Source: a virus. Taken from it: a stretch of DNA of 27,177 nucleotides. The first letter of the stretch is position 1; each line of letters opens with the position of its first letter. Shown one piece after another: positions 414-3,355 of this stretch. A model generated the notes under the pieces. The model saw only the letters and a list, made by a program, of their open reading frames with translations, had not been told where the DNA came from and did no database searches. The stretch is from positions 1 through 27,177 of IMG/VR virus record IMGVR_UViG_3300025626_000107, one strand, 5' to 3'. A program made the translations under genes and the position numbers.

Positions 414-422
414 TTATCTTTG
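392..422 (+). promoter_or_regulatory. Host-type promoter for the small RNA
   Basis: TTTG at 392-395, a 19-base spacer, then TATCTTTG at 415-422. This matches the Bacteroidota housekeeping promoter (-33 TTTG, -7 TAnnTTTG) at every fixed position. The -33 element lies inside the end of the ninG gene. No good protein gene follows within the transcript, which ends at the terminator at 501-529. Confidence 0.75.
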
Positions 423-428
423 AAGGGT

Positions 429-529
429 AAATAAACTGTGGTGGTATATTTTATAGGTAGAGCAAGATCGAAAGATTCCCTGCCTAGTATCTGTTCGGAA
501 GGGGAAAATTAATTTTTTCCTCTTTTTTT
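429..529 (+). ncRNA. Probable structured small RNA of about 100 nt
   Basis: The 181-base gap between ninG and the gene at 595 holds a perfect host-type promoter (392-422) and a Rho-independent terminator (501-529), so a transcript of about 100 nt is expected; the 5' end is estimated from the promoter. Between them, TAGGTAG (454-460) pairs with CTGCCTA (480-486, one G-U), enclosing a small GATC-GAAA-GATT hairpin (466-477) with a GAAA tetraloop. The only reading frame, from GTG at 438, encodes 24 residues without any leader signal. It is not a tRNA: no acceptor pairing and no proper T-loop were found. I do not recognise the RNA family. It could be a regulatory RNA or an antisense or decoy RNA. 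Confidence 0.55.
501..529 (+). terminator. Rho-independent terminator of the small RNA
   Basis: GGGGAAAA (501-508) pairs with TTTTCCTC (515-522; 8 bp, one G-U) around a TTAATT loop, followed by seven T (523-529). It separates the small RNA from the promoter at 540-570. Confidence 0.8.
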
Positions 530-2088: not shown

Positions 2089-2898
2089 ATGACAAACGAA
2101 CAGTTGCAACTTATTGATAAGTTGTGTAAAATAGATACCACAGAAAAAGTAGAATATCCTCCATTAGCATTATCTTTTGGTGACAAGGTTATTCAAAGTA
2201 AAAAGGGAAATATAGTTGTTGAAATACCTCTTGGAACTTTAGGAAATTTTTCCTTTATCCAAGCACCTCCCAAAAGCAAAAAATCATTCTTTGTTAGTTT
2301 ACTAGTTTCAGCGTATTTAAGGAGTAACAACTTTGTAGGCAAAATTAAAAGCCACAGAAGAGATGAGAAGGTTTTACATTTCGATACAGAGCAAGGTAAA
2401 TATCACGCATCATTAGGATTTAGAAGAGTTACAGAGATGTGTGGTGTTACTGATGGTTACCATCCTTACTTTCTAAGAACATTAGGGTACGATCAAAGGA
2501 TTGAGTTTATAGAACATTGCCTAAAAAATTACAAAAATACAGGTTTAGTTGTTATTGATGGGATTGCTGATTTAGTTGCTGATGTAAACGACATAGAACA
2601 AAGTAATAATTGCGTTCAGAAACTAATGAAGTGGAGTAGTGATTACAATTGCCACATAATAACTGTGATTCATAGCAACTTTGGTACTGACAAACCCACA
2701 GGGCATTTGGGTTCTTTCTTGGAAAAAAAGACAGAAACACAAATTTCACTTGAGAAGAATACAGTACACGAAGATCAAGTAACAGTATCTTGTAAAAGGA
2801 GCAGAGGATTCCCTTTTGAGACATTCTCGTTTAAAATTAATAACTTTGGCTATCCCGAATTAGTAGATAGCATTTATGATCCCCTCAAAAACACTTGA
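2089..2898 (+). CDS. RecA-fold AAA ATPase/helicase-like protein with eroded Walker A
   Basis: A 269-residue protein with the plan of the phage RepA/AAA_25 group of hexameric ATPases: a linker, a P-loop region at 55-68, a Walker B strand TGLVVIDGIADL (about 151-162), and a sensor-like strand CHIITVIHSN (about 185-194). These proteins usually unwind or load onto DNA during phage replication. The odd point is the P-loop: A59-P-P-K-S-K-K65-S66 replaces both glycines of G-x4-G-K-S, while Lys and Ser remain. It may still bind nucleotide. The end overlaps the sigma factor gene by 23 bases, so the two are translationally coupled. A strict RecA-type recombinase is less likely given the length. Confidence 0.7.
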   Translation: MTNEQLQLIDKLCKIDTTEKVEYPPLALSFGDKVIQSKKGNIVVEIPLGTLGNFSFIQAPPKSKKSFFVSLLVSAYLRSNNFVGKIKSHRRDEKVLHFDTEQGKYHASLGFRRVTEMCGVTDGYHPYFLRTLGYDQRIEFIEHCLKNYKNTGLVVIDGIADLVADVNDIEQSNNCVQKLMKWSSDYNCHIITVIHSNFGTDKPTGHLGSFLEKKTETQISLEKNTVHEDQVTVSCKRSRGFPFETFSFKINNFGYPELVDSIYDPLKNT

Positions 2899-3355
2899 AA
2901 AAATATTTAAAAAGAACAATCAATGGATTGAAATTGTCCAATCGTTTGGTTGCAATCGTGACACATCACAAGACATTGTTCAAGAGATGTACATAAAGGT
3001 TCAGAAGCGTTTAGAGAAAGGCACAGATATCCAATATAGTGAAGATGACATAAACTATTACTACATTTTTAAAGTGCTTAGATCGCTTTTCTTGGACTTA
3101 AAAAGAAAGGAATCAAAAGTAGAAATTGTAGAGTTGGATGTTGTAGAGAATTGTGATGAAGATATTGACTATGAACAGGCTTATGGATTAGTGGTAGATG
3201 AGATCAATGAATTGTTTTGGTACGATAGAAAGATTTATGAGATTGTTGATGGGGGTATCAGTATTTCCGAGTTAAGCCGACAAACAAACATCAGTTACTA
3301 TTCGCTTTACAACACATACAAAAGAGTTAAAACCAAATTAAAACACTTGATATGA
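2876..3355 (+). CDS. Small sigma-70 family (ECF-like) RNA polymerase sigma factor
   Basis: A 159-residue protein with a two-domain ECF-type layout. Region 2 is residues about 15-85: the SQDIVQEMYIKVQKRL segment (core-binding region 2.1/2.2) and a conserved-type helix YYYIFKVLRSLFLDLKRKE with the aromatic and basic residues of regions 2.3/2.4. Residues 86-105 are an acidic linker. Region 4 is about 108-159, with a helix-turn-helix ISISELSRQTNISYYSLYNTYKRVKTKL that would read a -35 element. Sigma factors redirect RNA polymerase to chosen promoters. The start overlaps the ATPase gene and the end overlaps the next gene by four bases (ATGA). It is the best candidate to recognise the four CGTTATATA promoters of the virion genes; that link is inference. 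Confidence 0.8.
   Translation: MIPSKTLEKIFKKNNQWIEIVQSFGCNRDTSQDIVQEMYIKVQKRLEKGTDIQYSEDDINYYYIFKVLRSLFLDLKRKESKVEIVELDVVENCDEDIDYEQAYGLVVDEINELFWYDRKIYEIVDGGISISELSRQTNISYYSLYNTYKRVKTKLKHLI

Follow-up and report, generated by a model that had tools for sequence, protein, structure and literature searches.

A conserved small-RNA gene at the junction of ninG and the early operon in uncultivated phages, probably of marine Bacteroidota, with predicted pairing to the phage's own mRNA starts

Positions 415–529 of the window, that is, of the whole 27,177-nucleotide stretch of virus record IMGVR_UViG_3300025626_000107 analysed here, are a free-standing small-RNA gene, consisting of a promoter, a non-coding RNA and an intrinsic terminator. 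Computational analysis established the gene itself, its conservation, a covarying hairpin, the lack of an open reading frame, and complementarity to phage mRNA starts that goes beyond chance at the level of gene families. From these sequence comparisons we consider it somewhat probable that the product is a trans-acting base-pairing sRNA directed at the starts of the phage's own early mRNAs, probably as a repressor.

The gene immediately 5′ of the sRNA is ninG (24–413, + strand, as are the promoters, the sRNA features, erf, the ATPase gene and the pairing sites below), encoding a Rap/NinG endonuclease (Pfam PF05766, 4.9e-13; PHROG 5034, 9e-28), and synteny places it there in all relatives. The sRNA promoter consists of a −33 box TTTG (392–395, just outside the range first noted) and, after 19 nt, a −7 box TATCTTTG (415–422), which fits the flavobacterial sigma-A consensus TAnnTTTG. 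This consensus spans −12 to −5 (PMC9723704), so that transcription is predicted to start near 427; with the end taken from the U-tract, the predicted transcript is about 103 nt long (427–529). The promoter had been called perfect in an earlier sequence-only reading; TAnnTTTG or TAnnTTTA recurs after ninG, at the same spot, in nearly all relatives. We note that the pattern TTTG-N18–20-TAnnTTTG occurs once in the window and on average 1.2 times in dinucleotide shuffles, and is thus not improbable by itself; its weight therefore comes from its conservation.

The RNA begins with an unpaired 5′ box, ACUGUGGUGGUAUAUUUU (435–452), which is near-invariant in the alignment and is proposed as the pairing seed on the basis of the pairing tests described below. 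It is followed by a central hairpin (454–486) whose sequence drifts while its pairing is kept, by an invariant 3′ box, UAUCUGUU (488–495), and by the terminator (499–529; stem 499–508/515–524, U-tract 523–529), which is supported by the terminator scan, the fold and the covariance alignment. The minimum free energy fold contains the outer stem of the central hairpin, 7 bp long (454–460/480–486), and a GAAA-capped stem (466–469/474–477) forming the inner hairpin at 466–477, with a stability z of −2.1 (4 of 200 shuffles were equally stable). The 7-bp stem and the GAAA-capped hairpin noticed from the letters alone were thus both recovered, and the strong terminator noticed with them was placed by the scan at 497–526.

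These roughly 100 bases had been said to hold no credible gene, which the relatives bear out: the sole reading frame, starting from GTG, is broken in them, and a coding micro-ORF was rejected because the frame is not kept. A tRNA-like remnant, suggested by the stretch GGTAGAGC, was rejected as well, since ARAGORN detected no tRNA or tmRNA at the locus and the stretch is absent from some relatives. None of 4227 Rfam families, CRISPR repeats included, matched at the gathering threshold, and the best weak matches were far below it.

As far as sequence can tell, it is conservation, beyond the promoter pattern, that is decisive for an sRNA gene. In relatives retrieved by a NinG search, ninG is immediately followed, in the same order, by the promoter, CUGUGGUGGUAUAUU, a hairpin that differs in sequence, UAUCUGUU and a terminator; two further loci found by DNA pattern (L176 and L374) likewise have ninG upstream and erf downstream. 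A covariance model, R1, was built from three relatives only (L009, L016 and L018) and did not include the window, which it nevertheless recovered with a score of 73.3 bits (E = 4.8e-13); the model finds a single strong copy per genome, adjoining ninG. Two-sided compensatory changes occur in all nine pairs of the central stem, which none of 500 shuffles matched, and 98.7% of its cells pair, falling to 61–75% when the partners are slid; all these values come from 12 distinct members in an alignment fitted to the model. In an alignment-free test, every type of hairpin insert folds better than its own shuffles (p 0.0005–0.015). The 5′ and 3′ boxes remain conserved while the hairpin sequence drifts, and a pairing between the boxes (P1, GGUAU/AUAUC) is invariant in the members. 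Covariation and alignment-free folding thus agree that the RNA has a conserved structure, and together with the conserved promoter and terminator and the synteny they support the free-standing structured small RNA that had been read from the sequence, for which a covariation analysis over relatives had been suggested. An operon end would be expected to carry a terminator in any case, and the locus might be nothing more than the place where the ninG operon terminates, without any regulatory RNA. The conserved promoter, the near-invariant boxes and the compensatory changes in the hairpin all lie 5′ of the terminator, however, and make this very improbable.

The carriers are a family of uncultivated viruses whose host is probably a marine bacterium of the Bacteroidota. 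No cultured phage with an RNA of the window type was found: R1 does not match the cultured relative Nonlabens P12024L, and in Flavobacterium, Riemerella and Polaribacter phages the next gene follows ninG directly. In 397 Flavobacteriaceae genomes, R1 gave only terminator-driven matches, of up to 42 bits.

The sequence-only reading had also offered a decoy for an RNA-guided defence. The stretch TTTGAAGGGTAAA at 419–431 resembles the 3′ portion of certain type VI-B CRISPR repeats, a likeness that would favour a decoy of the Racr kind, which mimics a CRISPR repeat. The locus is also a small structured RNA in a phage, and Racrs exist for many CRISPR types (PMC10651486). Against this, the stretch overlaps the −7 box, its first bases precede the predicted start of transcription, and relatives have not retained it; Rfam gave no match; and in the 397 Flavobacteriaceae genomes the conserved box is about as frequent as its reversed control and occurs mostly once per genome. 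A CRISPR repeat mimic was therefore rejected, on the lack of any matching Rfam repeat family and of repetition of the box in those genomes, and we regard the decoy as extremely improbable.

The larger genes of the window all point in the same direction. In one relative (G002) erf is found close to one end of the contig and ninG close to the opposite end, which indicates that the genome is circularly permuted and that the sRNA marks where the early operon meets the ninG end. The assignment to the early region needs a slight refinement: the gene adjoins the early operon, but sits between it and the end of the ninG run, not inside it. The genes that follow include erf (1198–1722; Pfam ERF, 1.5e-23), which encodes a single-stranded DNA-annealing protein, a gene for a 105-residue protein, a gene for a RecA-fold ATPase (2089–2898; Pfam AAA_25, 2e-10; DnaB/RepA/RadA-like) and one for an ECF-like sigma factor (from 2876). 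The ATPase was modelled with medium confidence (pLDDT 67, pTM 0.72), and in Foldseek the model resembles DnaB, RepA and RadA/RecA folds (E 5e-6 to 8e-5), so that this protein is probably a replication or recombination ATPase.

Some other features of this region were observed. The first gene after the sRNA (595–792) is a variable slot, which in relatives L002–L021 holds unrelated small genes behind the same leader. Strong terminator-like hairpins occur within the early gene run at 799–816 and 2046–2067; the latter ends some 20 nt short of the start codon of the ATPase gene, and many relatives have one there. The 105-residue protein (1725–2042) has EDSGLPF as its last residues, which is reminiscent of the acidic tail that single-stranded DNA-binding proteins carry, and matched no family except one unknown PHROG. 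The 159-residue protein encoded at 2876–3355 has a weak likeness to ECF-type sigma factors (NCBIfam sigma70-ECF, 5e-6), and a comparable gene of Nonlabens phage P12024L is annotated with Sigma-70 region 2.

A promoter, a hairpin and a terminator directly before the early genes could alternatively form a cis-acting leader or attenuator, in which the short RNA ends at the terminator and antitermination, in the style of HK022 put or lambda PR′-tR′, carries transcription on into the early operon. That operon has a promoter of its own, distinct from that of the sRNA (541–570; TTG at 541–543, 19 nt, TATCTTTA at 563–570). Its −7 box is a perfect TAnnTTTG in L008; in some relatives, such as L009, this second promoter is degenerate, which would suit an attenuator. 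No alternative anti-terminator fold was seen, and an attenuator would leave unexplained both the complementarity to a start 1.6 kb downstream and the co-variation of that complementarity. We consider it improbable.

Targets of the window-type RNA were sought among the translation starts of the 44 gene families that occur in 7 or more of 10 genomes, and in every genome these starts were compared with the 5′ box of that genome. Those of the ATPase gene and erf ranked first and second of the 44 families by mean duplex energy (−13.2 and −12.4), values each reached by 2 of 200 column-permuted queries, in a permutation that ignores shared ancestry. Scored by longest run, the ATPase and erf were again first and second, though with lower significance (17/200 and 9/200, jointly 7/200). 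Three query segments of the sRNA were tried in the target searches, and the 3′ box used as a seed gave no target clearly above controls. We conclude that the predicted complementarity of the seed to phage mRNA starts, as shown computationally, exceeds chance at the family level.

The site predicted for the window's ATPase start (2079–2089) is UAC-a-CACCACA, which would pair with sRNA positions 437–446 and ends at the A of the AUG; the duplex has 7 + 3 bp and ranks fifth of 48 start regions (shuffle p = 0.048). The predicted site in the erf start region (1200–1219) would pair at 1200–1208 with sRNA 443–451 and at 1214–1219 with sRNA 437–442. Neither site in the window has an exact match of 8 nt or more, and the window's own evidence for pairing appears modest to moderate. 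ATPase leaders in phages with the box RNA vary between lineages but keep CCACA beside the start codon: among the matches listed, it is present in all 10 distinct leaders of these phages, and in none of 35 from phages with another RNA. Two relatives (G008 and G009) have ATPases that stand at 59–60% to that of the window, as distant as those of phages lacking the box, and yet share CCACA. In another (G007) the RNA lacks one GGU, and the ATPase leader UAAUAUACCACA matches this RNA over 12 contiguous bases. We observed that a similar leader, TTTAATATACCACACATG, occurs in L457, whose contig is without ninG, and this predicts an sRNA of the G007 type off that contig. Leader-level tests for the box type were weak (4–11 of 200).

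Alternatively, the partners of the sRNA might be mRNAs of the host or one of the host's RNA-binding proteins, and the complementarity to phage leaders seen in the group of the window would then be incidental. Conserved boxes beside a drifting hairpin are what any recognition element would show, and there are sRNAs in Bacteroidota, FopS among them, that bind RbpB and whose seed is an unpaired 5′ segment (PMC11697453). Furthermore, when the seed was searched against ten whole phage genomes, the best non-self duplexes were no better than shuffles until the search was limited to translation starts. On the other side stand the family-level ranking of the ATPase and erf, the co-occurrence of CCACA, and the matching pattern in distant phages described below; nor was any conserved near-perfect site found in the 397 Flavobacteriaceae genomes, in a search to which seeds of 7–8 nt are invisible. 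Of the suggestion that the RNA regulates host or phage mRNA, the phage part is thus supported by the target tests, while action on the host, which lacks a conserved near-perfect target in those genomes, we hold to be unlikely though not negligible.

More distant phages were gathered by ATPase-based retrieval, which points to at least several hundred relatives, and counts from them are among the matches listed. There the promoter and terminator are kept after ninG and the sequence of the RNA is different. In one type, the 5′ stretch is U/G-rich and is followed by a small hairpin, whose loop is often UAACC, and by a terminator. We note that U/G-rich RNAs pair readily with A/C-rich leaders, and that A-rich leaders likewise favour U-rich RNAs. 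In 11 of 13 lineages of this type, among the matches listed, 10–14 contiguous bases of the 5′ stretch are complementary to the phage's own ATPase leader; shuffle p is at most 0.005 in 9 of the 13, and own pairs of RNA and leader beat swapped ones with p = 5e-5, in a permutation that ignores shared ancestry. Two loci differ in step in both partners, pairing UAUUUGUUAUCA with UGAUAACAAAUA in L504 and GUUUUUUGUUAUCA with UGAUAACAAAAAAC in L512. When all leaders are considered, 23 of 231 in the matches listed have at least 11 nt complementary to their own RNA, compared with 1.0 for shuffled RNAs (maximum 4), 9.3 for swapped RNAs (none of 200 reaching 23) and 0 in the same sense. Several further leaders of the same phages match their own RNA, up to four in L489 and three in L512. 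We also observed, at these two and other loci of the U/G-rich type, a phage-specific A-rich leader motif that is common to several early genes and differs between phages. For RNAs of the GUUCUGUU type, own pairs beat swapped ones at the ATPase by energy (p = 0.0098, the permutation again ignoring shared ancestry), and the leader-level count in these phages was not significant. Overall, the complementarity of seed and leader appears moderate for the window type and strong in relatives of the U/G-rich type.

The same short motif lies near the sRNA promoter and, in inverted orientation, at the target starts, which could make it a DNA operator: an element bound by a protein, both within the sRNA gene and ahead of early genes, with no contact between RNAs. 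The motif is not palindromic, however, it falls within a seed that is unpaired, in an RNA whose hairpin covaries, and the leader matches in the distant phages are all antisense to the RNA (23 against 0 in the same sense, among the matches listed). An operator is accordingly quite improbable.

The RNA has all the testable features of a trans-acting sRNA, namely a gene of its own, structure and an unpaired complementary seed, and is provisionally placed in that class on these grounds. In the mechanism that we propose, a host sigma-A promoter at the junction of ninG and the early operon would transcribe an RNA composed of an unpaired 5′ seed, a small scaffold hairpin and an intrinsic terminator. 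The seed (435–452) would pair across the translation starts of the phage's own ATPase (2079–2089) and erf (1200–1219). RNA bound over a start codon most often represses, and the pairing would most likely block ribosome binding, so that the replication and recombination proteins may be limited or timed. More tentatively, the RNA at the ninG junction may be a phage-wide regulator in a broad group of Bacteroidota phages, with a seed antisense to a leader motif of several of the phage's own mRNAs and with seed and leaders changing together, such that each lineage has its own RNA–leader code. If so, a matched code could enable a resident phage to silence a related one that enters with the same code.

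Most of the sRNAs known to be encoded by phages come from enterobacteria and vibrios. No sRNA was described for phages of Bacteroidota in the literature searched, and neither 'Bacteroid' nor 'Flavobacter' occurs in the text of a review (PMC12197685). The locus provides an sRNA family that is backed by covariation, occupies a fixed position in the genome and has named predicted targets within the same small genome. If the co-diversifying pairs of seed and leader are real, the phage steers its own replication and recombination module by RNA pairing. To our knowledge, Bacteroidota mRNAs lack Shine-Dalgarno sites, and little is known of sRNA action in the phylum; such pairs would provide an example from there.

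HK022 put RNA and lambda 6S RNA are likewise short structured phage RNAs close to a promoter; put and PR′-tR′ act in cis on read-through by the polymerase, whereas here the early operon is served by a separate promoter. Antisense RNAs that control plasmid replication genes lie on the strand facing their target and are fully complementary to it. These RNAs, and lambda OOP (PMC12197685), resemble the proposed system in that each would restrain a gene for replication or for lysis/lysogeny on its own replicon. A cis-encoded antisense RNA of the OOP or CopA type was rejected here, because the sRNA and its predicted targets are both on the + strand, with partial complementarity and at distances of 0.7–1.6 kb (about 1.6 kb for the ATPase). 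Racr anti-CRISPR RNAs (PMC10651486) are also solitary small phage RNAs, but no similarity to CRISPR repeats was found here in the Rfam repeat families and in one family of host genomes, the Flavobacteriaceae. FopS/GibS of Bacteroides thetaiotaomicron (PMC11697453) share the phylum and the arrangement of an unpaired 5′ seed followed by an intrinsic terminator; they are, however, encoded by the host, multicopy, without a covarying central hairpin, and present in Rfam, which does not match the phage RNA. The trans-acting phage sRNAs VpdS of VP882 and PreS of lambda (PMC12197685) are likewise short and form their own expression unit, and base pairing on mRNAs is proposed here as well. The RNA described here differs from these two in its Bacteroidota setting and in having no sequence or Rfam relation to them, and also in that its predicted targets are the phage's own replication and recombination starts, with seed and targets appearing to co-diversify between phages.
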